In this document: positions 6,693 to 23,503 of the stretch, piece after piece
Layout of the letters: every line of letters starts with the position of its first letter
Numbering within the stretch: the first letter of the stretch is position 1
Assembly: GCA_017505465.1 (NCBI GenBank)
Contig: JAFVPE010000030.1
Coordinates: 1-64,000, forward strand
Reading direction: 5' to 3'
DNA length: 64,000 nucleotides
Origin: Clostridia bacterium
GTDB lineage: Bacteria > Bacillota > Clostridia > Christensenellales > Borkfalkiaceae
Program-made: the position numbers and the translations under genes
The notes under the pieces: model-generated
Database searches by the model: none
Seen by the model: only the letters and a program-made list of their open reading frames with translations
Told to the model about the DNA's origin: nothing

Positions 6693-7937
6693 ATGTCCAG
6701 ATACGAAGAAGCTAAAAAAATCTATGCGCAGTACGGTATTGATACGGAAGCGGCAATGGAAAGACTTGCAAAGCTTTCCGTGAGCGTACATTGTTGGCAA
6801 GGGGACGACGTAATCGGCTTTGACGGTAGCGACTCCCTTTCGGGCGGCATTCAAACGACGGGTAACTATCCTGGCAGAGCAAGAAACCCCGAAGAATTGT
6901 TTGCAGACCTTACGACGGCGTTCAAATTGATGCCCGGTAAGAAACGTGTAAACGTACACGCTTGCTATGCGCTCCTTGGCGAAGATAAGGGCAAGGTTGA
7001 CCGTGACGCTTACGAGTACAAGCATTTCGAACCTTGGGTAAAATGGGCGAAAGAAACGGGCTTGGAAGGCGTTGACTTCAACCCCACGTGGTTCTCTCAT
7101 CCGATGATGAAGGACGGCTTGTCCCTTTCTTCCCCCGACGAAGAAGTTCGTCAGTTTTGGGTACGTCACGGCAAGGCTTGTATGAAGATTGCGGCGGAAA
7201 TCGGTAAGGCGATGGGCAGCCCCTGCTGTGTAAACCTTTGGGTTCCCGACGGAACGAAGGACATCCCTGCGGATAGACTCGGCCCCCGTCTTCGTTTGAA
7301 GAAATCCTTGGACGAGGTTTTGGAAGGCTACGATAAAGAATGGGTTATCCCTGCGGTAGAAAGCAAGGTATTCGGTATCGGCGTAGAAAGCTACACGGTA
7401 GGCAGCAACGAATTCTATCAAAACTATGCGGCAACGCGCGGCATCTGCTGCTTGCTTGATACGGGGCATTATCATCCCACGGAAGTGGTTTCCGATAAGA
7501 TTCCTTCGATGCTTGCCTTCTACGATAAAGTACAGCTCCACGTATCCCGTCCCGTTAGATGGGATAGCGACCACGTAGTGGTAGTGGACGACGAGTTGAA
7601 AGAACTCTCGAAGGAAATCATTCGCAACGACGCGGACGAAAAAGTGGTTGTAGCGCTCGACTATTTCGACGCATCCATCAACCGTCTTTGTGCTTGGGTA
7701 ACGGGCGTGCGTTCGATGCAAAAGGCGCTCCTTTCCGCAATCCTTCAACCGTATGCGGAAATGAAGAAATTGCAAGACGAAGGAAACTTCACGAAAGTGT
7801 TCTATATGCACGAAAGAGTGAAATACCTTCCCTTCGTGGACGTTTGGAACGAATATCTCGCTCGCCAAGGCCTTTCCGAAGATTGGTGGGATGAAATCGA
7901 GAAATTCGAAAACGAAGTTATCGCAAAGCGCGTATAA
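6693..7937 (+). CDS. rhaA: L-rhamnose isomerase
   Basis: The 414-residue TIM-barrel enzyme interconverts L-rhamnose and L-rhamnulose using Mn2+. Family features seen include an S-V-H-C-W-Q-G-D-D segment near residue 30, N-P-T-W-F-S-H, and the metal-site stretches containing G-I-G-V-E-S-Y, L-L-D-T-G-H-Y-H-P-T-E and L-H-V-S-R-P-V-R-W-D-S-D-H. Length is normal. A TAAGGAGATAT ribosome site precedes the ATG. It works just before RhaB in the pathway. Confidence 0.93.
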   Translation: MSRYEEAKKIYAQYGIDTEAAMERLAKLSVSVHCWQGDDVIGFDGSDSLSGGIQTTGNYPGRARNPEELFADLTTAFKLMPGKKRVNVHACYALLGEDKGKVDRDAYEYKHFEPWVKWAKETGLEGVDFNPTWFSHPMMKDGLSLSSPDEEVRQFWVRHGKACMKIAAEIGKAMGSPCCVNLWVPDGTKDIPADRLGPRLRLKKSLDEVLEGYDKEWVIPAVESKVFGIGVESYTVGSNEFYQNYAATRGICCLLDTGHYHPTEVVSDKIPSMLAFYDKVQLHVSRPVRWDSDHVVVVDDELKELSKEIIRNDADEKVVVALDYFDASINRLCAWVTGVRSMQKALLSAILQPYAEMKKLQDEGNFTKVFYMHERVKYLPFVDVWNEYLARQGLSEDWWDEIEKFENEVIAKRV

Positions 7938-7965
7938 ATAAGTGCGCTTGCAGGTAATTGGAAGT

Positions 7966-8074
7966 CAAGGAACTCAGTTTCTTGCGGGTGTGGGCAGAGC
8001 CCACGAAAAGCGTCCCCATTTAAGCAAAACGTAGTTTTGCGTTACAACCGCAAGGCGGTCATCGCCGAAAGGCG
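7966..8074. repeat. modular mini-hairpin array (family A, copy 1)
   Basis: Five short palindromes in a row have stems of 4-8 bp: CAAGGAAC-tca-GTTTCTTG, GTGGGC-aga-GCCCAC, GCAAAAC-gta-GTTTTGC, ACCGC-aag-GCGGT and CGCC-gaaa-GGCG. The array fills the gap between rhaA and ackA. Nearly the same modules recur at 20287-20377 and 21181-21400. Confidence 0.8.
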
Positions 8075-9317: not shown

Positions 9318-10067
9318 ATGAAATCTCCCTTTGAAATCAAGAAAGAAATTTGCGAAGTAGGCCACAAGCTCTGGACCAAAGGTTTCGTTGCTGCAAACGA
9401 CGGTAACATTTCCGTTAAAGTTAGCGAAAACGAATACTACTGCACCCCTACGGGCGTATCCAAGGGCGATCTTACCCCTGATATGATTATCAAGGTTGAC
9501 AAAGACGGTAAGAAACTCGAAGGTAAACTCAATCCTTCGTCCGAAATCAAAATGCACATGAGAGTGTACAGAGAACGCCCCGACGTTACGGCGGTTGTTC
9601 ACGCACATCCTCCCGTTGCTACTGCGTTCACGGTTGCGGATATCGACCTTGACCAGTACATTCTCCCCGAAGCAGTTCTTACGATCGGCGACGTTCCCAC
9701 CTGTGATTACGGTACGCCTTCCACGATGGAAATTCCCGATTCGCTTGATCCGTATCTTCAACAACACGACGCATTCTTGCTTCGTAACCACGGTGCTTTG
9801 ACGGTTGGTTGCAACCTTCAAAAGGCATTCTTCATCATGGAAGAAGTTGAATTCAACGCAGTTATCTGCAAGCACGCTATGGACCTCGGTGCAGTGCACG
9901 AAATTTCCAACGATCAGCTCAAAAAGCTTATGGACCTTCGTAAGAAGATGAACTTGCCCGGACGTCACCCTGGTATCGACTACGGCGAAGAAACCCACTG
10001 CAACTGTGCTCACGCAGAGCTTGTAGAAGCGATTACGAAAAAGGTTTTGGCGGCACTCGGCAAATAA
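9318..10067 (+). CDS. class II aldolase for rhamnulose/fuculose-1-phosphate, BMC-associated
   Basis: The 249-residue zinc aldolase splits a deoxyketose-1-phosphate into DHAP and L-lactaldehyde. Visible family features are N-D-G-N-I-S near residue 30, the S-S-E loop containing the catalytic Glu, H-A-H-P-P zinc ligands near residue 96, and a later L-R-N-H-G-A zinc His. A C-terminal tail after H-C-N-C-A-H forms an amphipathic helix (ELVEAITKKVLAALGK) typical of encapsulation peptides, so the aldolase is probably inside or attached to the microcompartment. Confidence 0.88.
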   Translation: MKSPFEIKKEICEVGHKLWTKGFVAANDGNISVKVSENEYYCTPTGVSKGDLTPDMIIKVDKDGKKLEGKLNPSSEIKMHMRVYRERPDVTAVVHAHPPVATAFTVADIDLDQYILPEAVLTIGDVPTCDYGTPSTMEIPDSLDPYLQQHDAFLLRNHGALTVGCNLQKAFFIMEEVEFNAVICKHAMDLGAVHEISNDQLKKLMDLRKKMNLPGRHPGIDYGEETHCNCAHAELVEAITKKVLAALGK

Positions 10068-10214: not shown

Positions 10215-11669
10215 ATGGCAATCAATTGGACAGAAGCTCAAATTGAAGAAGTGGTTGCCGCGGTGATAAAGAACTTGGGCGGAGAAACAACGGCAAAGAG
10301 CGGTTGGGACTCCACGCAGTATAACGGTCGCAGACTTATTGGCGTTTATGCGGATATGAACGACGCGATCGATGCTGCTACGGCGGGCTACAAAGCAGTC
10401 CGCGCGATGACGCTCGAGGAACGTGAAAAGGTTATTGCGAACATTCGCGAGCTTTGCCGCAAGGAAGCGCCTATCATGGCGAATCTCGGCGTAGCCGAAA
10501 CGAAAATGGGACGCGTTGCGCATAAGACGGCAAAGCATATTCTCGTTGCGGACAAGACGCCCGGCACGTCGGACATCGTATCTCACGCAAAGACGGGGGA
10601 TCACGGTTTGACCTTGACGGAAATGGCTCCCTTTGGCGTAGTCGGCAGTATCACCCCTAGCACCAACCCTTCGGAAACGGTAATCTGTAACAGTATCGGT
10701 ATGATTGCGGCAGGCAACGGCGTTGTATTCAATCCGCACCCCAACGCAATCGCAACCTCCAACTATGCAGTAGACCTTGTCAACCGCGCAAGCGCGATGG
10801 CAGGCGGCCCTGCGGTGTTGGTGGCTTCGGTGGTAAAACCCACTCTCGATACGGCGCAAATTATGTATAAGCATCCCAACATTCGCTTGCTTGTTTGCAC
10901 GGGCGGCCCCGGCGTTGTTAGATCGGTTCTTTCCAGCGGGAAGAAGGCAATTGGCGCAGGTGCAGGTAACCCTCCCGTAATCGTAGACGATACGGCAGAC
11001 ATCAAGAAAGCGGGCAAGGACATCATCGACGGCTGTACGTTCGACAACAACCTGCCTTGCATTGCGGAAAAGGAAGTTTTCGCCTTTGCGAATATCGCGG
11101 ACGAGCTCATTTCCGAAATGCAAAAGAACGGCGCTTACAAGATTACGGTAGAGCAGGCGAACAAGCTTGCAAACATCGTGCTTGTAGAAAGCAAGAACCC
11201 CAAGACGGGCATTGTGAAGAAGGTTGTTAGCCGTGAATGCGTAGGTAGAGACGCGGCGGTGCTTCTTGCAAAGATCGGTATCAACGTAGGTCCTGAAATC
11301 CGTTGCATTATTTGCGAAACGAATTTCGAACACCCCTTCGTACAAGAAGAGTTGATGATGCCTATTTTGCCTATCGTTCGTGTAAACAATATCGAACAGG
11401 CAATCGATCTTGCGGTAAAAGCGGAGCACGGCAACCGTCATACGGCACATATGCACTCGAAGAATATTGATCATCTCACCCGTTTTGCAAAAGCGGTGGA
11501 AACGACGATCTTCGTCAAGAACGCACCCTCGTATGCAGGTATCGGCTTTGGTGGTGAAGGACACACGACGTTCACGATCGCAGGTCCTACGGGCGAAGGG
11601 CTTACGAGCGCGAGAAGCTTCACGAGATTCCGTCGCTGTGTAATGACGGATTATTTTAGAATTATCTAA
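10215..11669 (+). CDS. CoA-acylating propionaldehyde dehydrogenase of the BMC
   Basis: The 484-residue PduP/EutE-type enzyme oxidises propionaldehyde to propionyl-CoA with NAD+ and CoA. An N-terminal amphipathic helix (about residues 5-21, WTEAQIEEVVAAVIKNL) followed by a Gly/Thr linker matches an encapsulation peptide. The catalytic-cysteine region reads F-D-N-N-L-P-C-I-A-E-K-E near residue 281. A glycine-rich nucleotide stretch lies upstream of it. Length is normal for the family. It lies between two foldback repeats in the operon. Confidence 0.9.
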   Translation: MAINWTEAQIEEVVAAVIKNLGGETTAKSGWDSTQYNGRRLIGVYADMNDAIDAATAGYKAVRAMTLEEREKVIANIRELCRKEAPIMANLGVAETKMGRVAHKTAKHILVADKTPGTSDIVSHAKTGDHGLTLTEMAPFGVVGSITPSTNPSETVICNSIGMIAAGNGVVFNPHPNAIATSNYAVDLVNRASAMAGGPAVLVASVVKPTLDTAQIMYKHPNIRLLVCTGGPGVVRSVLSSGKKAIGAGAGNPPVIVDDTADIKKAGKDIIDGCTFDNNLPCIAEKEVFAFANIADELISEMQKNGAYKITVEQANKLANIVLVESKNPKTGIVKKVVSRECVGRDAAVLLAKIGINVGPEIRCIICETNFEHPFVQEELMMPILPIVRVNNIEQAIDLAVKAEHGNRHTAHMHSKNIDHLTRFAKAVETTIFVKNAPSYAGIGFGGEGHTTFTIAGPTGEGLTSARSFTRFRRCVMTDYFRII

Positions 11670-11750: not shown

Positions 11751-12956
11751 ATGGATATTACTTCTGCTCAAGTGGAAAGCATTGTTCGTAAAATTCTCGG
11801 TGAAATGGGTGGCTCGGCTGCAAGACCTACTTGCAACGGCAAGATTCCCAAAACCGCGAAGGTGGCTATGCTTACCGCACAGAAAAAGATCGAAGTAAAA
11901 GAATTCCCCATTCCTGCGCTGAACGACGACGACATTCTCGTAAAAGTAGAAGGTTGCGGCGTTTGCGGTACGGACGTTCACGAATGGAAGGTTGATCCCT
12001 TCGGGATTATCCCCGTAACGCTCGGACACGAAGGTACGGGTGAAATCGTTTACCTTGGTAAAAACATCAAGACGGATACGTCGGGCAAGCCTATCAAAGT
12101 CGGCGATAAGCTCGTAACGAGCGTTATCAGCTGCGGCGAATGCCACATCTGTCGTAATCATCCCGCAAATACCAACCTTTGCGATAAGCAAGGTGTATTC
12201 GGGCTCATTCCCCACAGCGACGCAAATCCTTTCACGGGTTGGTTTGCAGAATATCTTCTCATCAGAGGCAAAGGTTCTACCTATTTCGTAGTAAACGATT
12301 TGAACCTCAAAGAGAGAATGATCCTCGAACTTGCTTGCGTATGCGTACACGCTTTGAAGAGAGCGCAAACGACGGGGCTTATCAACTTCAACTCGAAGGT
12401 ACTTATCCAAGGGCTTGGCCCCGTAGGGCTTGTAATGATTAGCGTACTCCGCGCGGCGGGTATCAACCACATCATTGCAATCGACGGTACGCCGATGCGT
12501 TTGGAAGCGGCGAAAAAGCTCGGCGCAAAGACGGTAATCAACTTCAAGGAAGTAAGCACTCTCGAAGCGAGAGTAAACCTTGTCAAGAGCGTTGCAAACG
12601 GCGTGGGTGCGGACTTCGCATTCCAATGCACGGGTGCTCCTGCGGCGGCAAAGGATATCTTCGAATATATCCGTCGCGGCGGCGGCCTTTGCGAAATGGG
12701 TTTCTTCGTCAACAACGGCGAATACAACGTAAATCCTCACTTCGCAATGTGCAACAAGGAAATCAACCTTGTAGGCTCTTGGGATTACTCTGCAGACGAT
12801 TATCCCACCACGATGGCGTTCCTTCGTCAAGCAAGAGAAATGAATATTCCCGTTTGTGATTTGATCACGCACGAATATCCTCTCGATCAGTTGAACGAAG
12901 CAATGGAAACGAACGTTGCGCAGAAGGGTATCAAAATCTGCTACGTTGCTAAATAA
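11751..12956 (+). CDS. zinc-dependent MDR alcohol dehydrogenase targeted to the BMC
   Basis: The 401-residue medium-chain dehydrogenase contains C-G-V-C-G-T-D-V-H (catalytic zinc) near residue 68, G-H-E-G-T-G, a structural-zinc region C-G-E-C-H-I-C, and a G-L-G-P-V-G-L nucleotide-binding turn. An extra N-terminal helix (DITSAQVESIVRKILGEMGG) is an encapsulation peptide. It probably reduces propionaldehyde to 1-propanol and recycles NADH inside the shell, standing in for the iron-dependent PduQ. Lactaldehyde reduction is another possibility. Confidence 0.85.
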   Translation: MDITSAQVESIVRKILGEMGGSAARPTCNGKIPKTAKVAMLTAQKKIEVKEFPIPALNDDDILVKVEGCGVCGTDVHEWKVDPFGIIPVTLGHEGTGEIVYLGKNIKTDTSGKPIKVGDKLVTSVISCGECHICRNHPANTNLCDKQGVFGLIPHSDANPFTGWFAEYLLIRGKGSTYFVVNDLNLKERMILELACVCVHALKRAQTTGLINFNSKVLIQGLGPVGLVMISVLRAAGINHIIAIDGTPMRLEAAKKLGAKTVINFKEVSTLEARVNLVKSVANGVGADFAFQCTGAPAAAKDIFEYIRRGGGLCEMGFFVNNGEYNVNPHFAMCNKEINLVGSWDYSADDYPTTMAFLRQAREMNIPVCDLITHEYPLDQLNEAMETNVAQKGIKICYVAK

Positions 12957-13117: not shown

Positions 13118-13435
13118 ATGGCACTTGGCATGATAGAAGTATTCGGTTTCGCAACCTCGATTGTGGTCGCGGACGCTATGGCGAAGGCTGCGGACGTAAA
13201 GGTCGTAGCGATCGACAAAAATAAGCCCGCGGCGGGGGATTCCGCACGTGTGCCTCTGGTCATGGCGATCAAGGTGGAGGGCAGCGCGGCGGCAGTCGAA
13301 GCGGCGGTCGCGGCAGGAAAAGCCGAAGCTGAAAAAAGAGATTTGTATATTACCCACAAGGTAATTGCAAGACAGAGCGAAGAAATTGAGTGGTTTGCTC
13401 ATTTGAGTGCGCTCGGCAAAGATAAATTAAGATAA
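13118..13435 (+). CDS. BMC-domain hexameric shell protein with long pore loop
   Basis: The 105-residue protein has one BMC (Pf00936) domain beginning A-L-G-M-I-E-V-F-G and ending near residue 90, plus a short C-terminal tail. Where the neighbouring paralogs have a compact K-I-G-S-G pore loop, this one has a longer stretch (DKNKPAAGDSARVP), so its central pore should differ. It forms facets of the microcompartment shell. An AGGAGAAAAT ribosome site precedes the start. Confidence 0.88.
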   Translation: MALGMIEVFGFATSIVVADAMAKAADVKVVAIDKNKPAAGDSARVPLVMAIKVEGSAAAVEAAVAAGKAEAEKRDLYITHKVIARQSEEIEWFAHLSALGKDKLR

Positions 13436-13474: not shown

Positions 13475-13750
13475 ATGATGGAAGCATTGGGTATGGTAGA
13501 AACCAGAGGTCTTGTAGCAGCAATCGAAGCAGCAGATGCAATGGTAAAGGCAGCAAACGTTGTACTTATCGGCAGCGAAAAGATCGGTAGCGGTTTGGTA
13601 AGCGTTATGGTACGTGGCGACGTAGGCGCAGTAAAGGCTGCTGTGGAAGCAGGTACGGCTGCTGCTGCGGCTCTTGGCGAAGTAGTTGCTACGCACGTAA
13701 TTCCTCGTCCCCACGCAGACGTTGAAAAGTTGCTCCCTTCTATTAAATAA
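13475..13750 (+). CDS. BMC-H shell protein, PduA/EutM-like (twin copy 1)
   Basis: The 91-residue canonical BMC-H protein contains M-V-E-T-R-G-L near the start and the K-I-G-S-G pore loop, and ends with I-P-R-P-H. It is identical to the protein at 14253-14525 except for two residues (A/T and A/M) and one extra start methionine. The tandem ATG-ATG leaves the exact start open. It is probably one of the most abundant shell tiles. Confidence 0.93.
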
Positions 13751-13906: not shown

Positions 13907-14179
13907 ATGAAAGCAATAGCGTTACTCGAAGTACAGGCTATGGTTGCCGCAATCACCGGGCTTGACGCTATGGTAAAAGCAGCTGACGTAAAGCTGATAC
14001 ACGTAGAAAAGCGTCTCGGCGGCAGATTGGTAACAGTCGTCGTCGAAGGTGAGGTTTCCGCAGTCAAAGCGGCGCTCGAAGCGGGCGCAAGAGCGGCGGC
14101 GGAAGTCGGTAACGTAAAGGTGTGCGAAGTGATCGCGCGCCCTCACCCCGACGTTATGAGATTCTTAACGACGGGTTAG
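13907..14179 (+). CDS. BMC-H shell protein with arginine-rich pore loop
   Basis: The 90-residue single BMC-domain protein is of normal length. It has the E-V-Q-A-M-V-A-A-I start helix and the I-A-R-P-H-P-D-V end. The pore loop reads R-L-G-G-R-L instead of K-I-G-S-G-L, so the six-fold pore would be lined by arginines and could favour anionic metabolites such as CoA esters or phosphates. That selectivity is inference. Confidence 0.9.
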   Translation: MKAIALLEVQAMVAAITGLDAMVKAADVKLIHVEKRLGGRLVTVVVEGEVSAVKAALEAGARAAAEVGNVKVCEVIARPHPDVMRFLTTG

Positions 14180-14252: not shown

Positions 14253-14525
14253 ATGGAAGCATTGGGTATGGTTGAAACCAGAGGTCTCGTAGCAGCAATC
14301 GAAGCAGCAGATGCAATGGTAAAGGCAGCAAACGTTGTACTTATCGGCAGCGAAAAAATCGGTAGCGGCTTGGTAAGCGTTATGGTACGTGGCGACGTAG
14401 GCGCAGTAAAGGCTGCTGTTGAAGCAGGTACGGCTGCTGCTACCGCTCTTGGCGAAGTAGTTGCTACGCACGTAATCCCTCGTCCCCATATGGACGTTGA
14501 AAAACTTCTCCCTTCTATCAAATAA
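14253..14525 (+). CDS. BMC-H shell protein, PduA/EutM-like (twin copy 2)
   Basis: The 90-residue canonical hexamer former differs from the copy at 13475-13750 at two positions only, and the DNA is also nearly identical. An AGGAGG ribosome site lies 8 nt upstream. The near identity means a recent duplication or ongoing gene conversion, and suggests that a high dose of this tile is needed. Confidence 0.93.
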
Positions 14526-14583: not shown

Positions 14584-14692
14584 AAGTTTTTCAAACTAGG
14601 CAAAAAGGAGAAAACCACACAAAATAGAGGGTGGTTTTGGTTTGTTGCACCTAAAAACGGGTGAAAAAACATAAAAATTGGAAGGAATCACA

Positions 14693-15355
14693 ATGGAATT
14701 TACTAGCGCGCAGATTGCGGAATTGGTTAAAAAAGTACTTGCGGATATGGACGGCGGCGCTGCGGCAAGCTCAGCTTGCAACGGTGAAGTGCCCGTAGGC
14801 GTATCCAATAGACACATTCATTTGAATAAAGCGGATTTGGAAACTCTCTTTGGCGCAGGGTACGAGCTCACGCCGATGAAGGATCTTTCCCAACCCGGTC
14901 AGTATGCCTGCAAGGAAACCCTTACCTTGATCGGGCCTGCTATGCGTCCGATTGAAAACGTACGCGTATTAGGGCCGTTGAGAAGCAAATCGCAGGTGGA
15001 AATTTCCGCAACCGATTCGTACGTGCTCAAAGTAAAACCGCCCGTAAGAGAATCGGGTAAAATCGAGGGCTCTGCGCCCGTGACGATCATCGGGCCGAAA
15101 GGGGTTGTACAGCTCAAAGAAGGCTGTATCATCGCCAACAGACATATCCATATGTCGCCTGCGGACGGCGTAGCGTTTGGGGTAAAGGACGGGGATACGG
15201 TGACGGTAGACGTCAACGGCAAACGCCGTACTCGTTGGTATGACGTGCAGGTGCGCGTGCATAAGGATTTCCGTTTGGAAATGCACGTGGACACGGACGA
15301 CGCAAATGCAGTTGGTATCGGTAACGGCGCAAAAGTAAAGGTTGTGAAGGAGTAA
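14693..15355 (+). CDS. pduL: phosphate propanoyltransferase
   Basis: The 220-residue PduL-type enzyme converts propionyl-CoA to propionyl-phosphate. An N-terminal encapsulation helix (about residues 2-19, FTSAQIAELVKKVLADM) is followed by two similar PduL barrels, each with a zinc-binding N-R-H-I-H motif (V-S-N-R-H-I-H near residue 36; A-N-R-H-I-H-M-S in the second). The start ATG has a GGAAGGA site. An upstream in-frame TTG is not supported. Confidence 0.93.
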   Translation: MEFTSAQIAELVKKVLADMDGGAAASSACNGEVPVGVSNRHIHLNKADLETLFGAGYELTPMKDLSQPGQYACKETLTLIGPAMRPIENVRVLGPLRSKSQVEISATDSYVLKVKPPVRESGKIEGSAPVTIIGPKGVVQLKEGCIIANRHIHMSPADGVAFGVKDGDTVTVDVNGKRRTRWYDVQVRVHKDFRLEMHVDTDDANAVGIGNGAKVKVVKE

Positions 15356-15358
15356 AAT

Positions 15359-15610
15359 ATGTTAAGAGGAATCATCAGAGGTCATATCGTATCGACGAAG
15401 AAGCAGAAGTCTTTGGAAGGCTCGAAATTCATGGAAGTAGAGCTTATGAAGAACGGCGAATTGACGGGCGAATTCATCATTGCAGTGGATAGCGGCGTCG
15501 GTGCAGGTATCGGCGAAGAAGTTTTGATTACGACGGGTAGCTCCGCACGTTTGGCGTTGTTGAATCAAAATGCGCCTTGTGACGCGGTAATTGTCGGTAT
15601 CATCGACTAA
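15359..15610 (+). CDS. EutN/CcmL-type BMC pentamer (vertex) protein
   Basis: The 83-residue protein has the Pf03319 pattern: L-R-G-I-I-R-G-H-I-V-S-T-K-K near the start, V-D-S-G-V-G-A-G-I-G-E-E-V-L in the middle and a final A-V-I-V-G-I-I-D. Pentamers of this family cap the vertices of the shell. It lies 3 bp after pduL and is probably translationally coupled. Confidence 0.92.
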   Translation: MLRGIIRGHIVSTKKQKSLEGSKFMEVELMKNGELTGEFIIAVDSGVGAGIGEEVLITTGSSARLALLNQNAPCDAVIVGIID

Positions 15611-15795: not shown

Positions 15796-17115
15796 ATGGA
15801 TTTAAAAGCAATTTTGAGAGAATCGGGAATAGTGGGCGCAGGCGGCGCAGGTTTCCCCTCGTATGCGAAACTCGCAGACGGGGCGGATACGCTTGTCATA
15901 AACGGCGCAGAATGCGAGCCCTTGCTCTATACCGACTATATTTTACTCAAAAAAGAGCTGCCGACGGTGCTTGCGGGTATCAAGGCGGTGATGGACTATG
16001 CGAAAATCCCGTGCGCTCTTCTCTGTGTGAAAGAACACACGGCAATCCGCTTAAAATGGAAGGACGGAGCGAAGCTCGCCGAAAAAATTATCGTAAAAAC
16101 GTTGCCCGACGTATATCCAATGGGCGATGAAATCAGCTTGATTTATCAAGCGACGGGCAGGGTGGTAAAGCCCGGCAATTTGCCGATTACGGCAGGCGTA
16201 ATTGCGCTCAACGTAGAAACCCTGTATAACGTGGCGTTGGCTGTGAAGAAAAACGCGCCCGTTACCGAAAAATATTTGACGATTGCAGGGGATATTCCCG
16301 AAGCGATCGTGGTAAAAGTTCCAATCGGTACGCCGATTGCAGAGCTTTTTGAACTCAATTCGATTATAGTCCCCGAAGGGTACACCGTTTTGGACGGCGG
16401 ACCTTCGATGGGTAAAGTAATAGATCCCGAAACGGCGGTTGTAACCAAGACGACGAAAGGGCTTTTGATTTTGCCCGACTCCTGCGAGGCGATTATGTCC
16501 AAGTATTTGGACGGACCGAAGTCCATCGCCCGTGCGGAAACGGCTTGTTGTCAATGCACTCGCTGTACGGATATGTGTCCAAGACATCTTTTAGGGTATC
16601 CGCTTGAACCGCACAAAATGGTGCGCACGGCGAAATCCGCCGCGGAAGTGATGCCCGAAATGGTGATTACGGCAAACCTTTGCTGTGGCTGTGGGATTTG
16701 CGAATCCCTTGCTTGCTGTCAAGGCATTTCCCCGAAAGCGGTCATCAACGAATACAAGGTGTTGCTTGCGAAAAACAAGATGCGCTACGTCGCCAAGGAA
16801 GAAGTTTTCCCTGCCCCCGAAAGAGAGTACCGTATGGTACCTTCCGAGCGTTGGGCAAGCGTTCTCGGCATTGCACGATTCGACAAGGTGGCGAAATATA
16901 TCGGGGTACAAAACTCGTTTACGAGAGCGGAAGTGCTTTTCCGTCAACACATCGGTGCGCCGAGCGTGCCTTGCGTGGAAGACGGGGCAACCGTGCAAAA
17001 GGGCGATAAAATCGCCGAAGCTGCGGAGGGCTTGTCCCTTCCTCAATATGCGCCGATATCGGGTGTTGTAACGGTATTCGACGACAAGATTGTAATTGAA
17101 AAGGTGAATGAATAA
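15796..17115 (+). CDS. PduS-like/RnfC-type iron-sulfur flavoprotein
   Basis: The 439-residue protein has an N-terminal NADH/FMN domain starting G-I-V-G-A-G-G-A-G-F-P, a SLBB-like region, then two ferredoxin-type cluster motifs (C-C-Q-C-T-R-C-T-D-M-C-P near residue 253 and C-C-G-C-G-I-C-E-S-L near residue 297). It ends with a biotinyl-like domain. PduS proteins move electrons across or inside the shell. In a B12-independent locus the role is probably redox balancing (NADH to another acceptor) rather than cobalamin reduction. Confidence 0.88.
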   Translation: MDLKAILRESGIVGAGGAGFPSYAKLADGADTLVINGAECEPLLYTDYILLKKELPTVLAGIKAVMDYAKIPCALLCVKEHTAIRLKWKDGAKLAEKIIVKTLPDVYPMGDEISLIYQATGRVVKPGNLPITAGVIALNVETLYNVALAVKKNAPVTEKYLTIAGDIPEAIVVKVPIGTPIAELFELNSIIVPEGYTVLDGGPSMGKVIDPETAVVTKTTKGLLILPDSCEAIMSKYLDGPKSIARAETACCQCTRCTDMCPRHLLGYPLEPHKMVRTAKSAAEVMPEMVITANLCCGCGICESLACCQGISPKAVINEYKVLLAKNKMRYVAKEEVFPAPEREYRMVPSERWASVLGIARFDKVAKYIGVQNSFTRAEVLFRQHIGAPSVPCVEDGATVQKGDKIAEAAEGLSLPQYAPISGVVTVFDDKIVIEKVNE

Positions 17116-17660
17116 TGTTTAAAGCTATCGGTGTTATTGAGTTAAAGAGTATTCCCAAAGGGGTAGAAGCAACGGACGCAGCTCTCAAGAGCGCAGGCGT
17201 AGAGCTTATTTCCGCGCACCCTGCTTGCCCTGGCAAATATGAAATGATTTTGACAGGCTCGATTTCTAACGTAACGGCGGCGGTTAGCCACGTGCTTTCC
17301 AAATTTGAAGGCTACGTTATCGACAGCTCGGTTATGGGTAGAATCGACGAACAGGTTATCAAAGCTCTCTTCGGTACGCAAACGGGACAAAAGAAGGGCT
17401 CGCTTGGACTCATCGAAACCTTCTCGGCGGCGACAACGATCAAAGCGGCTGATCTTGCGGTAAAGACGGCGAGAGTGGAAATTTTCGATCTTCGCGTATC
17501 CCGCGGTATGGGCGGCAAGGGCGTCGTAATGCTGACGGGCGAAGTCGGCGACGTTATGGCGGCAGTGGAATCCGGCTCGGCATACGCAAAAACGACGGGG
17601 CAGCTTTCTAGCGAAGCGGTTATCGCAGCACCCCACGAGGATCTTTGGAATCAATTATAA
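17115..17660 (+). CDS. PduT-like tandem BMC shell protein (BMC-T) with pore cysteine
   Basis: The 181-residue protein has two BMC domains (about residues 1-90 and 95-181). The sequence H-P-A-C-P-G-K-Y near residue 36 matches the position of the PduT cysteine (C38 in the Salmonella protein) that ligates a [4Fe-4S] cluster in the trimer pore. The gene overlaps the pduS-like gene by one base, supporting an electron-transfer pair through the shell. Confidence 0.9.
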   Translation: MFKAIGVIELKSIPKGVEATDAALKSAGVELISAHPACPGKYEMILTGSISNVTAAVSHVLSKFEGYVIDSSVMGRIDEQVIKALFGTQTGQKKGSLGLIETFSAATTIKAADLAVKTARVEIFDLRVSRGMGGKGVVMLTGEVGDVMAAVESGSAYAKTTGQLSSEAVIAAPHEDLWNQL

Positions 17661-17745: not shown

Positions 17746-20277
17746 ATGGAAAACATCAAATTCGTGCTTGAAAAGAGCGCAAGAATTGAAAAATTAGTAA
17801 ACGCATTGTACGAGAAAATGCCCGAAATTGAATCGGCGCGCGGACTTCTCGTGACGGAAAGCTATCAACAAACGGAGCATTTGCCCATTATTTTGCGTAG
17901 AAGCGCGGCGTTTGCGCACATTCTTCGCAATATTCCTATCGTTATTCGTGATAACGAGCTCGTCGTCGGGAGCGCTACGGTTGCGCCTCGCGGCTGTCAG
18001 GTATTCCCCGAATATTCCTACGAGTGGTTGGAAGCGGAATTCGACACGGTAGCAACCCGTGCGGCAGATCCTTTTTACATTAGCGAACAAACGAAAGCGG
18101 ATCTTCGCAAGGCATATCCTTATTGGAAGGGCAAGACGAATAGCGATCTTGCGAAATCGAATATGTCCCCCGAAGCGTACGAAGCGTTCGTAACGCACGG
18201 TATGTTTACCCCCGGTAACTATTTTTACAACGGTATCGGCCACGTAAACGTAAACTATGAAAAGGTACTCAACAAAGGGTACAAGGGGATTATGGCGGAA
18301 GCGCAAGCGGCGCTTGAGAAGCTTGACGTATCCGATCCCGAATACGTACAAAGAGGCAATTTCCTCCGCGCAGTTCTTGAATCCTGCGAAGCGGTTATTG
18401 AATACGCAAGAAGATACGCAAAGCTTGCGAAAGAGCTTGCCGCAAAGGAAAAGAATGCGGATAGAAAAGCGGAGCTTGAAAAAATTGCGAAAAACTGTGC
18501 GAGAGTTCCCGAATTCCCTGCAAGAGATTTCCACGAAGCCTGTCAATCCTTTTGGTTCGTTCAACTTTTATTGCAGGTGGAATCGAGCGGACATTCCATT
18601 TCGCCCGGTAGATTCGACCAATATATGTATCCCTTCTATAAGAAGGACATCGACGCAGGCAAAATTACGGTGGAGCAAGCGCAAGAGCTTATCGACTGTA
18701 TTTGGGTAAAACTCAACGACATCAACAAGGTGCGTGACGCCGGCTCGGCAGACGGCTTTGCCGGGTATGGTATGTTCCAAAACCTTATCGTTGGCGGTCA
18801 AAACATTCACGGCATGGACGCGACGAACGATTTGTCGTATATGTGCTTGGAAGCGGCTATGCACGTACCCCTTCCCCAACCTTCCATTTCCATTCGTGTA
18901 TGGAACGGCTCTCCCCAGCCCTTGCTTTTGAAGGCGGCGGCATTGACGAGACTTGGCACGGGTTTGCCCGCATATTATAACGACGAAGTTATCATTCCTT
19001 CGATTATGGCGAGGGGATTGACGCTCGAAGACGCAAGAGATTACTGTATCATCGGTTGCGTAGAACCGCAAAAGGGCAGTAAGACGGACGGTTGGCACGA
19101 CGCGGCGTTTTTCAATATGTGCCGTCCTATGGAGCTTGTATTCTCGAACGGCGTGAGCAAGGGTGTGCAAATCGGTCCCGAAACGGGCGACGTTGCGCAA
19201 ATGCAAACGTTTGAAGAAGTTTTCGAAGCGTATAAAACACAACAAAGCTATTTCATTAAATTGCTTGTCAATGCGAATAACGCAATCGATGCGGCGCACG
19301 CAGTGCGTTGTCCGTTGCCTTTCCAATCCTGTATGGTGGACGACTGTATCGGTCGCGGCAAATCCTTGCAGGAAGGGGGCGCGATCTATAATTTCACGGG
19401 GCCGCAGGGCTTTGGGATTGCCAACAATACGGACGGTTTGCTTGCCATCAAACAGCTTGTCTTTGAAGAAGGCAAGGTGACGATGGCGGAATTGCGCGAC
19501 GCGTTGAACGCAAACTTTGGCTATGGTCTTACGGGCAGTGCTGCGGAACGTGTAGTCAACGACGTAGCTCGTTCGCTTGCACAACAGGGCTTTGAAATTA
19601 CCGAATCGGTGATTAAGACCATTTGTGAAGAGGTGACGACGGGCGCAAGCATTCCTGCGGATAAGAGAGAAAGATACCGCGAAATCAAGCGCTTGATTGA
19701 CGAAACCTGTCCTAAGTACGGCAATGATATTTACGAAGCGGATATGTTCGCTCGTGAAGTCGGCAACACGTACACGAAGGAAGTGGAAAAATACAAGAAC
19801 CCTCGCGGCGGTATTTTCCAAGCAGGCTTGTATCCCGTGTCGGCAAACGTACCCCTCGGCGGACAAACGGGCGCAACGCCCGACGGCAGATTGGCGTTCA
19901 CGCCGATTGCGGACGGTATCGGTCCTGCATCGGGTAGAGACGTGAAAGGGCCTACGGCTACGGCGAACTCGGTTGCGAAGCTTGAACAAGGGGTTGCAAG
20001 TAACGGTACGTTGCTCAACCAAAAGTTCCACCCTTCGGCGCTTGCGGGTATGAGTGGGCTTACGAAATTCGTTGCGTTGATTCGTTCCTATTTCGACCAA
20101 AAGGGTATGCATATGCAGTTCAACGTCGTTACGCGTGAAACGCTGCTCGACGCACAAAAGAATCCCGAAAAATACAAGACGCTCGTCGTTCGTGTTGCAG
20201 GGTACAGCGCATTGTTCACGACGCTTTCGAAATCGTTGCAAGACGATATCATCAATAGAACGCAACAAGGATTCTAA
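17746..20277 (+). CDS. glycyl radical propanediol dehydratase (B12-independent)
   Basis: The 843-residue glycyl radical enzyme dehydrates 1,2-propanediol to propionaldehyde. The active-site cysteine region reads I-I-G-C-V-E-P (about residue 437), and the C-terminal glycyl radical loop is R-V-A-G-Y-S-A. Both fit diol dehydratases rather than pyruvate formate-lyase, which carries a Cys pair. The ATG at 17746 has an AAGGCGG site; an upstream in-frame ATG at 17704 has none. Its activase is the next gene. It is the signature enzyme of the microcompartment. Confidence 0.92.
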   Translation: MENIKFVLEKSARIEKLVNALYEKMPEIESARGLLVTESYQQTEHLPIILRRSAAFAHILRNIPIVIRDNELVVGSATVAPRGCQVFPEYSYEWLEAEFDTVATRAADPFYISEQTKADLRKAYPYWKGKTNSDLAKSNMSPEAYEAFVTHGMFTPGNYFYNGIGHVNVNYEKVLNKGYKGIMAEAQAALEKLDVSDPEYVQRGNFLRAVLESCEAVIEYARRYAKLAKELAAKEKNADRKAELEKIAKNCARVPEFPARDFHEACQSFWFVQLLLQVESSGHSISPGRFDQYMYPFYKKDIDAGKITVEQAQELIDCIWVKLNDINKVRDAGSADGFAGYGMFQNLIVGGQNIHGMDATNDLSYMCLEAAMHVPLPQPSISIRVWNGSPQPLLLKAAALTRLGTGLPAYYNDEVIIPSIMARGLTLEDARDYCIIGCVEPQKGSKTDGWHDAAFFNMCRPMELVFSNGVSKGVQIGPETGDVAQMQTFEEVFEAYKTQQSYFIKLLVNANNAIDAAHAVRCPLPFQSCMVDDCIGRGKSLQEGGAIYNFTGPQGFGIANNTDGLLAIKQLVFEEGKVTMAELRDALNANFGYGLTGSAAERVVNDVARSLAQQGFEITESVIKTICEEVTTGASIPADKRERYREIKRLIDETCPKYGNDIYEADMFAREVGNTYTKEVEKYKNPRGGIFQAGLYPVSANVPLGGQTGATPDGRLAFTPIADGIGPASGRDVKGPTATANSVAKLEQGVASNGTLLNQKFHPSALAGMSGLTKFVALIRSYFDQKGMHMQFNVVTRETLLDAQKNPEKYKTLVVRVAGYSALFTTLSKSLQDDIINRTQQGF

Positions 20278-20286
20278 ACAGAAAAT

Positions 20287-20377
20287 CAAGGAACTCAGTT
20301 CCTTGTAGGCGGCAGAGCCTACGAAAGGAATCCCACTGAAAGCAAAACGCAGTTTTGCGACATTACCGCAAAGCGGT
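20287..20377. repeat. modular mini-hairpin array (family A, copy 2)
   Basis: Modules in order: CAAGGAAC-tca-GTTCCTTG, GTAGGC-ggcaga-GCCTAC, GCAAAAC-gca-GTTTTGC and ACCGC-aaa-GCGGT. Order and sequence match copy 1 with compensated or loop-only changes. Confidence 0.8.
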
Positions 20378-20395
20378 GAATGAAAGGAAAACACT

Positions 20396-21181
20396 ATGGA
20401 CTTTTACGGTACGAAAGGAAGAATATTCAATATTCAAAGATTCTCGATCCACGACGGACCGGGAATCCGTACCATAGTCTTTTTTAAGGGTTGTTTCATG
20501 CGCTGTGCTTGGTGCTGTAATCCCGAATCGCAGTCGTACGAAATTCAAACGATGTGGGAAAACGGCAAGGCAAAAACGGTAGGCCGTGACGTGACGGTGG
20601 CGGAAATTATGCCCGAACTGCTCGCGGATGAGAATTATTATAGACGTAGCGACGGCGGTATTACGCTGTCGGGCGGTGAAATTCTCGGTCAACCCGATTT
20701 TGCAAGGGATTTACTCCGCGCGTGCAAGGAAAACGGCTTGCATACGGCGGTGGAATCGACGGCAAACGCACCTTATGAGAACATCGAAAAGATTTTGCCG
20801 TACTTGGATTTATACTTGATGGATATCAAGCATATGGACTCGGCAAAGCACAAGGAATACACGCGCGCAGGGAACGAGTTGATTTTGGAAAACGCCAAAA
20901 AGCTTGCGACAAGCGGTGTGGAGCTTGTAATTCGTACCCCCGTTGTGCCGGGGTTTAACGATACGGCGGAAGAAATCCGTGCAATTTCGAAATTTGCGGC
21001 GTCTTTGAAAACGGTACGCGAGCATCACTTGTTGCCGTATCATCGTTTGGGGCAAGACAAGTACGCAGGCTTGGATAGAAACTATGCGTTGAAAGGTGTT
21101 GAACCGCCTGCGCAGGAAAAAATGGAATATTTACTTTCCATTGCGGAAGAGAGCGGCTTGAAATGCCAAATCGGCGGTTGA
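20396..21181 (+). CDS. glycyl radical enzyme activase (radical SAM), short form
   Basis: The 261-residue radical SAM protein has the cluster motif C-F-M-R-C-A-W-C near residue 32 and downstream S-G-G-E and V-E-S-T SAM-binding motifs. It installs the glycyl radical on the dehydratase. The eight-cysteine ferredoxin-like insert found after the radical SAM motif in many diol-dehydratase activases is absent, making the protein short like pyruvate formate-lyase activase. Confidence 0.9.
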   Translation: MDFYGTKGRIFNIQRFSIHDGPGIRTIVFFKGCFMRCAWCCNPESQSYEIQTMWENGKAKTVGRDVTVAEIMPELLADENYYRRSDGGITLSGGEILGQPDFARDLLRACKENGLHTAVESTANAPYENIEKILPYLDLYLMDIKHMDSAKHKEYTRAGNELILENAKKLATSGVELVIRTPVVPGFNDTAEEIRAISKFAASLKTVREHHLLPYHRLGQDKYAGLDRNYALKGVEPPAQEKMEYLLSIAEESGLKCQIGG

Positions 21182-21400
21182 CAAGCTACGCTTGTAGGCA
21201 GTTTTAGCGTGGCAGTTGGAAGTCAAGGAACTCAGTTCCTTGCGGGTGTGGGCAGAGCCCACAAAAAGAAGCCCCAATAAGCAAAACGTAGTTTTGCGTT
21301 ACCACCGCAAAGCGGTCAACGCAACGCAGTTGCGCCAAAGGCTCGCAAAAGCAAGCTATGCTTGCGCCACTACCGCAAAGCGGTTCACGCCGCAAGGCGT
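21181..21400. repeat. modular mini-hairpin array (family A, copy 3, longest)
   Basis: At least nine palindromes occur in a row, including ACAAGC-tac-GCTTGT, CAAGGAAC-tca-GTTCCTTG, GTGGGC-aga-GCCCAC, GCAAAAC-gta-GTTTTGC, ACCGC-aaa-GCGGT (twice), CGCAAC-gca-GTTGCG, GCAAGC-tat-GCTTGC and ACGCC-gcaa-GGCGT. It fills the 275-bp gap between the activase gene and the EutS-type shell gene; no ORF is supported here. Confidence 0.8.
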
Positions 21401-21456
21401 TATAACCAAACAATACAAAAAACGAGAAATATTGAAAACTCAAGAGAGGAATAGAT

Positions 21457-21816
21457 ATGGAATTGAAAGATAAAATGACAATCGTGCAGGAATTTGTTCC
21501 CGGTAAACAAATTACCCTGTGCCATATTATTGCAAATCCAGGCGAAACCTTGTATACTAAACTTGGGCTTGATCCCCAAGCGGATTATACGAGAAGCGCT
21601 ATCGGTGTTTTGACGATCATTCCCTACGAAGGGGCGGTAATCGCAGCAGATATCGCGATGAAGGCTTCGGGTGCGGAAATCGGCTTCGTGGATAGATTCA
21701 CGGGTACGCTTATTATCACCGGTTCCGTTTCTTCTGTGGAAGCGGCTTTCGTAGCGATTCGAGAATATTTCATCAATAAGCTTGGTTACACTTGTTGCGA
21801 ACTTACAAAGACCTAA
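21457..21816 (+). CDS. EutS/PduU-type permuted BMC shell protein
   Basis: The 119-residue protein has the circularly permuted BMC layout of EutS/PduU: an early Q-E-F-V-P-G-K-Q-I-T-L segment that forms the plug barrel, H-I-I-A-N-P-G-E-T, then G-F-V-D-R-F-T-G and a C-terminal C-E-L-T-K. In Eut/Pdu systems this protein is usually paired with an EutP/PduV GTPase, as it is here. Confidence 0.92.
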   Translation: MELKDKMTIVQEFVPGKQITLCHIIANPGETLYTKLGLDPQADYTRSAIGVLTIIPYEGAVIAADIAMKASGAEIGFVDRFTGTLIITGSVSSVEAAFVAIREYFINKLGYTCCELTKT

Positions 21817-21822
21817 TAAAAA

Positions 21823-22365
21823 ATGAAAAAAATTATGTTATTCGGCAGAGTTGCGGCAGGTAAAACAACCTTGACGCAGGCTTTGCGGGGTGAAGAAATT
21901 AAATATTACAAGACGCAGTACGTCAACTATCTCGATACCGTCATCGACACGCCTGGGGAGTACACCGAACGCCGTGAAACGAGCGGTGCGCTTGCTTTAT
22001 ATGCCTACGAAGCGGACGTGGTCGGCTTGGTGCTTTCGGCAAACGAGCCCTATTCCATTTTTTCTCCTTGTCTTACGAGTATGGTAAACCGTGAAGCAAT
22101 CGGTATTATTACGGGCATCGATAAGCCCGACGCAAACGTTGAAAGGGTGCGGAATTGGTTGAAGCTTGCAGGCTGTAAAAAGATATTCCCCGTTAGCTCC
22201 TATACGGGCGAAGGAATTGCCGAGCTTGCGGCGTTCTTGAACGAAGAACCGACAAAAAAACGGATTTCTAAAACGGAAAAGACGGGAAAATCCGCAAAAG
22301 GGAAAAAGACTTCCGCAAAAAAGACGGACAATACAAGCGAGAAACTCGATACTTGGTTATTATAA
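21823..22365 (+). CDS. EutP/PduV-like GTPase with lysine-rich tail
   Basis: The 180-residue small GTPase has P-loop G-R-V-A-A-G-K-T-T, switch motif D-T-P-G-E-Y, and a G-I-D-K specificity motif. Typical EutP ends near residue 145. This protein adds about 35 residues rich in Lys, Ser and Thr (S-A-K-K-T motif) ending in D-T-W-L-L. A similar tail and ending occurs on the small protein two genes on. PduV has been tied to microcompartment movement, so a role in positioning or assembly is plausible. Confidence 0.85.
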   Translation: MKKIMLFGRVAAGKTTLTQALRGEEIKYYKTQYVNYLDTVIDTPGEYTERRETSGALALYAYEADVVGLVLSANEPYSIFSPCLTSMVNREAIGIITGIDKPDANVERVRNWLKLAGCKKIFPVSSYTGEGIAELAAFLNEEPTKKRISKTEKTGKSAKGKKTSAKKTDNTSEKLDTWLL

Positions 22366-22380
22366 ACTACGGAGAAAATT

Positions 22381-23184
22381 ATGAGCAAAACGATTGTAAT
22401 TGCATTTGCAAACAACAAAGGGGGTAGCGGTAAGACGACTACCTGTTCCAACGTCGGGTGCGCCCTTGCTTTGGAAGGCAAAAAGGTGCTGATGATAGAC
22501 GGGGATATGCAACTCAACCTTACCATTTCCTTTTTCGACGAAGAAAAGGCTTACGAATACGCAAAGGGGGATAAGAATATCTACCGTGCGGTTGTGGGCG
22601 AAGCGGACCTTTCCGATTATATTGTGGAAACGGAAATCGAAGGGCTCGACATCGTGCCTTCGACGTCCCTTATGAGCTCGATTGAGTTCGATTTGTTTGC
22701 AAAATGGCAGAGAGAATCGGTGCTTAAAAAGTGCTTGGAAAGGGTGCGTGCAAAGGGATATTACGATTATATCCTTATCGACTCGCCCCCCACGCTTGGC
22801 GGTTGGGTGATGAACGTGATGTGCGCTTCCGATTACGTGGTAATCCCCGTAGAGGCAAGCCCTTGGGGTTTGTTCGGGTTGGCAAATATGTTCGATTTTT
22901 GCGATCAAGCCAAGAGAATTGCACCTAAATTGGAAATTCTCGGCATCGCCGTTACCAAAGCGGACGAGAGAAAGAAATATTTCAAACAGACGATGGAAAC
23001 CTTGCGCGAAATGGAAGCCGCGCCCCTGTTCGAAAATTACGTGCGCGTAGATAGTGCGGTAGAGTGGGCGCAGGACAACAGCAAGCCCGTCGTTGCTTAT
23101 AAGAAATCGAGCCGCAGTGCGGTAGAATATACAAAACTTGCAAAGGAGATTATAGAATATGCCCATCGGAAAGAACGCAATTAA
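22381..23184 (+). CDS. ParA/McdA-type partitioning ATPase in the BMC operon
   Basis: The 267-residue protein has a deviant Walker A box N-N-K-G-G-S-G-K-T-T (signature Lys13, catalytic Lys18), a D-G-D-M-Q-L-N Walker A' motif near residue 40, and a Walker B I-L-I-D-S-P-P near residue 127. Basic residues near the C-terminus fit non-specific DNA binding. There is no ParB gene, no HTH and no parS-like site nearby. A small basic gene overlaps its 3' end. I infer a McdA-like role: spreading microcompartments over the nucleoid. Confidence 0.88.
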   Translation: MSKTIVIAFANNKGGSGKTTTCSNVGCALALEGKKVLMIDGDMQLNLTISFFDEEKAYEYAKGDKNIYRAVVGEADLSDYIVETEIEGLDIVPSTSLMSSIEFDLFAKWQRESVLKKCLERVRAKGYYDYILIDSPPTLGGWVMNVMCASDYVVIPVEASPWGLFGLANMFDFCDQAKRIAPKLEILGIAVTKADERKKYFKQTMETLREMEAAPLFENYVRVDSAVEWAQDNSKPVVAYKKSSRSAVEYTKLAKEIIEYAHRKERN

Positions 23185-23467
23185 AAGAGTGGAAAACAAC
23201 GGTTACTCAAAGGTCGCAAGCTCTGCGCCCGATATGGAAAACAGCCACGTGATCGCAAATCCCGATCCGCAGGTTGTGGAAAAATTGATCGCGCCCGTAG
23301 AGGCTGCGCCTGCAAAAAAGGCCGCTCCTGCGAAGAAAAAAGCTTGTTCGAGTAAATCCTCGGCAAAGAAAACGACGGCGAAAAAAGCGGCAATTGAAGC
23401 GTCTGAAGCGAAAGACGGCTTCGTAAAGGTCGAGCTTGGCAGTGAAATGCCCTTCTATCTTTTATAA
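23159..23467 (+). CDS. small basic low-complexity protein, candidate McdB-like adaptor
   Basis: The 102-residue protein matches no family I recognise. A strong AAGGAG 10 nt upstream of the ATG, inside parA, and a 26-bp overlap with parA support it as a real coupled gene. Layout: a basic N-terminal peptide (PIGKNAIKRVENNGYSKV), an acidic/neutral segment, a Lys/Ala-rich disordered stretch (about residues 48-78), and a hydrophobic C-terminus E-M-P-F-Y-L-L. ParA partners usually stimulate the ATPase through a basic N-terminal peptide, and the C-terminus could bind the shell. Confidence 0.75.
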   Translation: MPIGKNAIKRVENNGYSKVASSAPDMENSHVIANPDPQVVEKLIAPVEAAPAKKAAPAKKKACSSKSSAKKTTAKKAAIEASEAKDGFVKVELGSEMPFYLL

Positions 23468-23474
23468 AAAAGTG

Positions 23475-23503
23475 AAAATCGGTGGTTTTGCGCCGATTTT
23501 TTA
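23475..23503 (+). terminator. rho-independent terminator closing the BMC operon
   Basis: AAAATCGG pairs with CCGATTTT, followed by T residues. It separates the parA/adaptor pair from the glycosidase gene. Confidence 0.75.

Follow-up and report, generated by a model that had tools for sequence, protein, structure and literature searches.

A conserved ParA–adaptor pair in a glycyl-radical microcompartment operon resembles McdAB and appears to be linked to ParB

The closest described counterparts of the locus analysed here are McdA and McdB. In H. neapolitanus, McdB binds McdA via its first 20 residues, with K7 being critical (PMC12204374), and Basalla et al. (2024, PMC11321042) give the C-terminal Trp of McdB as required for carboxysome binding, with Tyr substituting to varying degrees. 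McdA of S. elongatus has been reported without the signature Lys, and McdB has been described as unrelated to ParB (PMC9178275). ParA has been recorded among the ancillary genes of bacterial microcompartment (BMC) loci (Axen et al. 2014, PMC4207490), and Hakim et al. (2021, PMC8262871) and a 2025 review (PMC13052382) describe putative McdAB systems in several non-carboxysome operons. At PDU and GRM loci, Basalla et al. (PMC11321042) report proteins resembling McdB whose final five residues include Tyr or Phe, with acidic residues close by. Pairs like McdAB have thus been published for PDU, EUT and GRM loci as well as for carboxysomes, and the general idea is not new. A ParA can also be recruited to a non-DNA structure by a ParB domain, as in PadC and its bactofilin scaffold (PMC12704722, PMC9178275); the words microcompartment, carboxysome and McdB are absent from the 2025 survey of the ParB-CTPase fold (PMC12704722). 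A conserved pair of this kind could bear on how cells place their catabolic microcompartments, and would be testable in cultured gut bacteria that carry it (Blautia luti, B. massiliensis and Murimonas intestini).

Layout of the rhamnose and microcompartment genes

The window (the whole stretch of 64,000 nucleotides that was analysed) is contig 27 of a gut bacterium's 1.66-Mb genome that is 82.5% complete. A rhamnose pathway (FGGY kinase, RhaA, acetate kinase and class II aldolase) leads into a full glycyl-radical microcompartment operon that runs from aldehyde and alcohol dehydrogenases through four BMC-H proteins, PduL, EutN, PduS, a PduT-like protein, the glycyl radical enzyme and its activase to EutS and EutP, with parA and a 102-residue gene as its final two genes:

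6693–7937, + strand: L-rhamnose isomerase RhaA, which supplies the pathway substrate (PF06134, E = 5e-175)
9318–10067, + strand: class II aldolase, fuculose/rhamnulose-phosphate type (PF00596, E = 6e-49)
10215–11669, + strand: acylating aldehyde dehydrogenase (NF011927 above cut-off; PF00171)
11751–12956, + strand: zinc alcohol dehydrogenase in the lactaldehyde reductase position (PF00107, PF08240)
13118–13435, + strand: BMC-H shell protein (PF00936, E = 3e-18)
13475–13750, + strand: BMC-H shell protein (PF00936, 100.1 bits)
13907–14179, + strand: BMC-H shell protein (PF00936, 67.9 bits)
14253–14525, + strand: BMC-H shell protein (PF00936, E = 3e-29)
14690–15355, + strand: PduL phosphate propanoyltransferase (PF06130, E = 9e-78)
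15359–15610, + strand: EutN-like BMC-P vertex protein (PF03319, E = 1.5e-24)
15796–17115, + strand: PduS-like flavin/FeS protein (PF01512, PF13375, PF13534)
17115–17660, + strand: PduT-like tandem-BMC shell protein (two PF00936 domains)
17749–20277, + strand: glycyl radical enzyme, probable 1,2-propanediol dehydratase (PF02901, E = 2e-246; PF01228, E = 2.5e-35)
20396–21181, + strand: glycyl radical activating enzyme (PF04055, E = 1.3e-18)
21457–21816, + strand: EutS-like shell protein, BMC-H (PF00936, E = 1.3e-11; NF012012, E = 2e-32)
21823–22365, + strand: EutP/PduV-type GTPase (PF10662, E about 8e-52; TIGR02528 above cut-off)
22381–23184, + strand: ParA-type deviant Walker A ATPase, 267 aa, the proposed positioning ATPase (PF13614 AAA_31, E = 7.7e-53; PF01656, 1.1e-18)
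23159–23467, + strand: small adaptor, 102 aa (counterparts at this position in 111 loci, as 97 distinct proteins)

The operon agrees with the published definition of GRM5 (PMC6325248) in having a glycyl radical enzyme with its activase, a class II aldolase, an alcohol dehydrogenase of the lactaldehyde reductase type, PduS and PduT, and this layout makes 1,2-propanediol the probable substrate of the glycyl radical enzyme. No Rubisco or carboxysome neighbours are present at the window locus, the operon being that of a glycyl radical metabolosome. The initial annotation had described an intact deviant Walker A ParA following EutS and EutP with short gaps, and an overlapping 102-residue gene with a ribosome-binding site of its own. 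Both descriptions hold: the gaps are 6 bp (EutS to EutP) and 15 bp (EutP to parA), and the adaptor gene begins inside parA with an overlap of 26 bp and an AAGGAG ten bases upstream of its ATG. On its 3′ side, inspection by eye found a hairpin with a T-run (AATCGG...CCGATTTTTT, about 23476–23503), as at an operon end, which is not listed by the terminator scan because its loop exceeds the length that the scan allows.

Separately, an intergenic element full of short inverted repeats lies at window positions 21203–21416, 20283–20380 and 7958–8065. It has 35 matching places genome-wide (71–100% identity), three of them within the operon region, and one copy sits between the glycyl radical activase and eutS.

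Distribution and descent of the ParA

A survey of 151 genomes of the family, queried with the window ParA, found two well-separated sets of ParA, one in 32 genomes at 56–100% identity and a second, Soj-like set at 33–36%. ParAs at least 56% identical to the window copy occurred in 32 of the 36 shell-bearing genomes and in none of the 115 shell-less ones (Fisher p = 1e-28, kinship ignored), so that the linkage to microcompartments in relatives on which the initial annotation had staked its reading is borne out. The window’s genus contains nine genomes with both ParA and shells, nine with neither and one (G147) with shell genes only, whose contig stops inside eutP, before parA. Of the other shell-bearing genomes without this ParA, G125 has a completeness of 64%, G146 has its shell genes on a contig of 10.6 kb, and in G100 the ParA is truly absent. 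Across a class-wide sample the ParA was found in 3 of 391 genomes, all three among the 113 with shells and none among the 278 without, so that it is accessory to one kind of locus and not a general microcompartment feature.

A further scan of one genome per species returned 460 ParA relatives, and among the best 80 of these 460, which were examined, most pairs lay within the shell operon, immediately 3′ of EutP. The pair was found away from the shell operon in Blautia, Murimonas and a few others, where shell genes were present in 8/8 such genomes tested; with two carriers from other families of the class, both of which encode shells, this makes ten further carriers whose shell genes are not beside the pair, all ten encoding shells. 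Outside the family, G227 has the ParA with no recognisable adaptor beside it, which, with the absence of ParA from G100, indicates that the pair is dispensable.

Several neighbouring genes vary among relatives. In Murimonas, as in genera g10 and g18, the pair is followed by a gene that by eye resembles an iron-type alcohol dehydrogenase. Genera g2, g10 and g18 have a gene for a DeoR-like regulator immediately ahead of parA, separating it from the PduT-like gene (L071:13671–14441, L073:7208–7975 and L074:15043–15819). The pair with a ParB-type adaptor in a Clostridiales MAG (L152:8077–13005) sits between L-arabinose isomerase-like and ribulokinase-like genes, not in a shell operon. A few close relatives (L082, L083, L085) have a lipoprotein-like gene of ~200 aa between eutP and parA, about 600 bp before parA; the eutP–parA inserts of 300–600 bp in a few relatives were considered as a possible adaptor and ruled out, as they hold this lipoprotein-like gene or nothing recognisable.

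The window ParA has its signature lysine (motif ANNKGGSGKTTT), and the deviant Walker A box KGGSGK with this lysine is invariant across the aligned ParAs. With a dN/dS of 0.04–0.09 within the window’s genus, the ParA is under strong purifying selection. A tree of 53 microcompartment ParAs was rooted on nine Soj/ParA sequences of the same family, used in place of a distant-paralogue outgroup that gave extreme branches. All 53 form a single clade, and the branch separating them from Soj has full support (100/100): the microcompartment ParA is not Soj, as the first reading had needed.

These results bear on whether the pair serves ordinary partition of a chromosome or mobile element and came by chance to lie behind a microcompartment operon. 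The ParA profile does score highest against ParA and Soj structures (8ray ParA 129.9 bits, Soj 114.6, versus 62.7 for McdA), and adaptors of sister genera bear a ParB_N domain, as described below; against this, the ParA is missing from the surveyed shell-less genomes, its clade stands apart from Soj of the same family, the adaptors have no HTH by inspection or, where scanned, by Pfam, and other genera have a canonical ParB elsewhere in the genome. As initially annotated, no ParB or HTH gene adjoins the pair, and a scan with a parS consensus gave 0 matches at up to three mismatches, versus 0.5 expected by chance. On the shell co-occurrence, the separate ParA clade and the lack of parS we reject chromosomal or plasmid partition, which we regard as scarcely credible. 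By profile score the window ParA is not closest to McdA, in a comparison that covers the cyanobacterial-type McdA of the PDB alone; what we infer is likeness to McdA in action rather than membership of the McdA clade.

Canonical ParB proteins of 302–350 aa coexist with the pair in genomes such as G035, G130, G026 and G018, indicating two separate systems. In the window’s genus, the sole other ParB-like gene found adjoins ftsH; its product, of 280 aa, is divergent, has what looks like an HTH and has lost the GERR-type motif (L175, G000:C15, about 1970–2800; L176, G036:C11); ParB_N had no match at all in four near-complete genomes of this genus.

Fixed ends and changing middle of the adaptor

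An adaptor homologue occupies the same position in 111/111 readable loci (97 distinct proteins of 72–207 residues), in keeping with the conservation that had been expected of the small gene. Adaptors were picked by an N-terminal pattern with a C-terminal pattern as fallback, and every readable locus in both main sets had one; the C-terminal pattern proved universal even though selection used the N-terminal one. The proteins start M-x-[I/V/L]-G-x-x-[A/S]-x-x-R, with M1, G4 and R10 invariant and residue 7 always A or S (111/111), and end P-x-[Y/H/W/F]-L-L, usually with an acidic residue just before this motif; their middle is variable. Among the 97 distinct proteins, Pro at −5 is universal, 95 end in Leu-Leu, and residue −3 is Tyr in 77, His in 10, Trp in 8 and Phe in 2. 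The short peptides discussed below are:

22243–22362, + strand: Lys-rich EutP tail ending LDTWLL, resembling the adaptor end (aromatic/His-Leu-Leu end in 20/68 EutP copies)
23159–23188, + strand: conserved N-terminal adaptor peptide MPIGKNAIKR, proposed ParA contact (M1, G4 and R10 invariant, 111/111)
23447–23464, + strand: conserved C-terminal adaptor peptide MPFYLL, proposed to bind the shell (Pro −5 in 97/97; Leu-Leu in 95/97)

Of the adaptor anatomy first proposed, the basic N-terminal peptide and the Lys/Ala-rich middle (21% Lys and 17% Ala) stand, and the ‘hydrophobic C-terminus’ is refined to a fixed short motif, EMPFYLL. The invariant C-terminal Trp of McdB is not kept: the window adaptor ends Phe-Tyr-Leu-Leu, with Trp in 8 of the 97 homologues. 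A Pfam search of the window adaptor matched no family, ParB_N included, and an AlphaFold model from 34 sequences was mostly of low confidence (mean pLDDT 62), the C-terminal end being best. The N-terminal third is under clear purifying selection (codons 10–33 conserved), and this, the dN/dS of the ParA and the 111 loci together mark the pair as conserved beyond chance.

A conserved domain instead forms the adaptor middle in genera g2, g10 and g18 and at two loci outside the family, in G403 and L152. All 18 such adaptors match Pfam ParB_N (PF02195) at E ≤ 0.01, the best being that of L152 (10779–11321; E = 1.2e-13; 51.3 bits versus a cut-off of 26.3), and a profile built from them retrieves PDB structures of ParB, Noc and Spo0J (best E = 8.8e-12). 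With the motif positions assigned from the general ParB pattern, the alignment retains the GxxxP turn and, of the GxRR box, a single Arg (GxxR), and has the other nucleotide-binding residues mostly altered, making CTP switching doubtful. Neither inspection of the adaptors nor Pfam, for those scanned, showed a recognisable HTH, and an AlphaFold model of one ParB-type adaptor from its single sequence was uninformative (mean pLDDT 39). Judged from these profile matches, the window adaptor family is related to ParB through its sister genera.

In the Soj-rooted tree the two earliest branches within the clade, G018 followed by g2, bear the ParB form, which favours this form as the older and the linker form as derived; the deciding fork is weakly supported (83/49) and adaptor states switch several times. 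We tentatively suggest, at a little short of an even chance, that organelle adaptors can arise from ParB: a ParB-type adaptor would have lost its DNA-binding part and gained a C-terminal shell-docking peptide, the remaining ParB domain would have decayed in some lineages, the window’s included, to a disordered linker with head and tail fixed, and EutP would then have acquired the same tail. The opposite course, with a ParB domain inserted into a linker adaptor, is possible.

The EutP tail (LDTWLL, LETYLL) is found in 20 of the 68 EutP copies that adjoin the pair, all of them from close relatives of the window; the other 48 lack it and end soon after the GTPase domain. Besides the adaptor and EutP, no protein of the window’s operon has an aromatic-Leu-Leu end. 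The simplest reading would be that both tails share one shell docking site; a single chance origin of the EutP tail is possible. A BMC-H shell protein of g2 (L071:9912–10277) has a Lys/Thr-rich C-terminal extension (TPKKTTAKKSSK) of a composition like that of the adaptor and EutP linkers.

If EutP/PduV were itself the positioning NTPase, the ParA and adaptor would have a different task, for instance in regulation or in the control of shell assembly. PduV was earlier proposed to position Pdu organelles, as cited in PMC8262871, and EutP of the window’s clade ends in the adaptor-like LDTWLL; yet EutP lies ~10 kb away from parA in some genera, most EutP copies (48 of 68) have no such tail, and the adaptor–ParA plan fits a known positioning mechanism, leaving this reading very improbable.

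A candidate spacing system and its relation to known systems

Gene order, conservation, co-occurrence with shells, a separate ParA clade, invariant adaptor ends and the ParB-domain variant are the observations to be explained, and we consider it likely, by analogy with McdAB, that the pair is a spacing system dedicated to a GRM5-type (rhamnose/1,2-propanediol) microcompartment. The ParA would bind ATP, dimerise and coat the nucleoid; the basic N-terminal peptide of the adaptor would contact it and trigger ATP hydrolysis and release; the flexible Lys/Ala-rich linker, or the ParB-type domain in sister genera, could give reach or self-association; and the C-terminal Pro-x-aromatic-Leu-Leu peptide would dock on the shell. 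Microcompartments bearing the adaptor would then follow the ParA gradient that they deplete, a diffusion ratchet on the nucleoid, resulting in spacing and in sharing between daughter cells. ATPase stimulation, nucleoid binding, shell docking and positioning are all inferred from that analogy, and the invariant adaptor ends pinpoint two short peptides to mutate.

Alternatively, the adaptor alone might tether or cluster the organelle, its Lys/Ala-rich linker binding DNA or condensing, with the ParA tuning assembly or number rather than spacing. The Lys and Ala content of the linker, the comparable Lys-rich linker of the EutP tail and the tuning of McdB condensates by basic residues (PMC10554743, PMC11321042) are compatible with such a role; however, in g2, g10 and g18 the linker is replaced by a ParB-type domain with the ends fixed, implying that what is essential does not lie in the Lys-rich stretch, and the strong purifying selection on the ParA also counts against it. 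We think this unlikely, and prefer the dedicated spacing system.

As with McdA and McdB, a ParA-type ATPase is here encoded just ahead of a small adaptor, mostly disordered, whose N-terminus is basic and whose C-terminus bears an aromatic residue, and the pair lies beside shell genes. In contrast, its proposed cargo is a glycyl-radical catabolic organelle, its ParA is nearer to Soj/ParA by profile score and keeps the signature Lys, and the C-terminal aromatic position of its adaptor family is usually Tyr and sometimes His, Trp or Phe, with ParB_N in some homologues. It shares with the McdB-like proteins of PDU and GRM loci a Tyr or Phe in the last five residues, acidic residues nearby (EMPFYLL) and proximity to ParA-type genes, and may belong to the same set; the ParB domain, fixed N-terminal motif, EutP tail and co-occurrence statistics are not mentioned in the available portions of those papers (PMC11321042, PMC8262871). 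The sister-genus adaptors have PF02195 with GxxxP and GxxR positions in common with ParB and PadC, but have no recognisable HTH and have partly lost the remaining nucleotide boxes, and the window adaptor has no ParB domain. PduV/EutP, the adjacent gene and an earlier candidate for organelle positioning, differs in being a Ras-like GTPase, not a ParA, with an adaptor-like tail in the window’s close relatives only. Within the open literature text, figures and subscription papers aside, no earlier account came to light of a microcompartment adaptor with a ParB domain, of the fixed motif at the adaptor N-terminus or of the tail on EutP, and a ParB N-terminal domain as the adaptor middle in other genera and an aromatic-Leu-Leu EutP tail in the window’s clade appear to be new. 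Taken at the level of sequence, the window pair is real and conserved, an McdAB-like pair belonging to a catabolic microcompartment whose outline was known and whose adaptor anatomy and ParB link appear new, and it offers a possible evolutionary bridge between DNA partition by ParB and organelle partition by McdB, which the literature has called unrelated.
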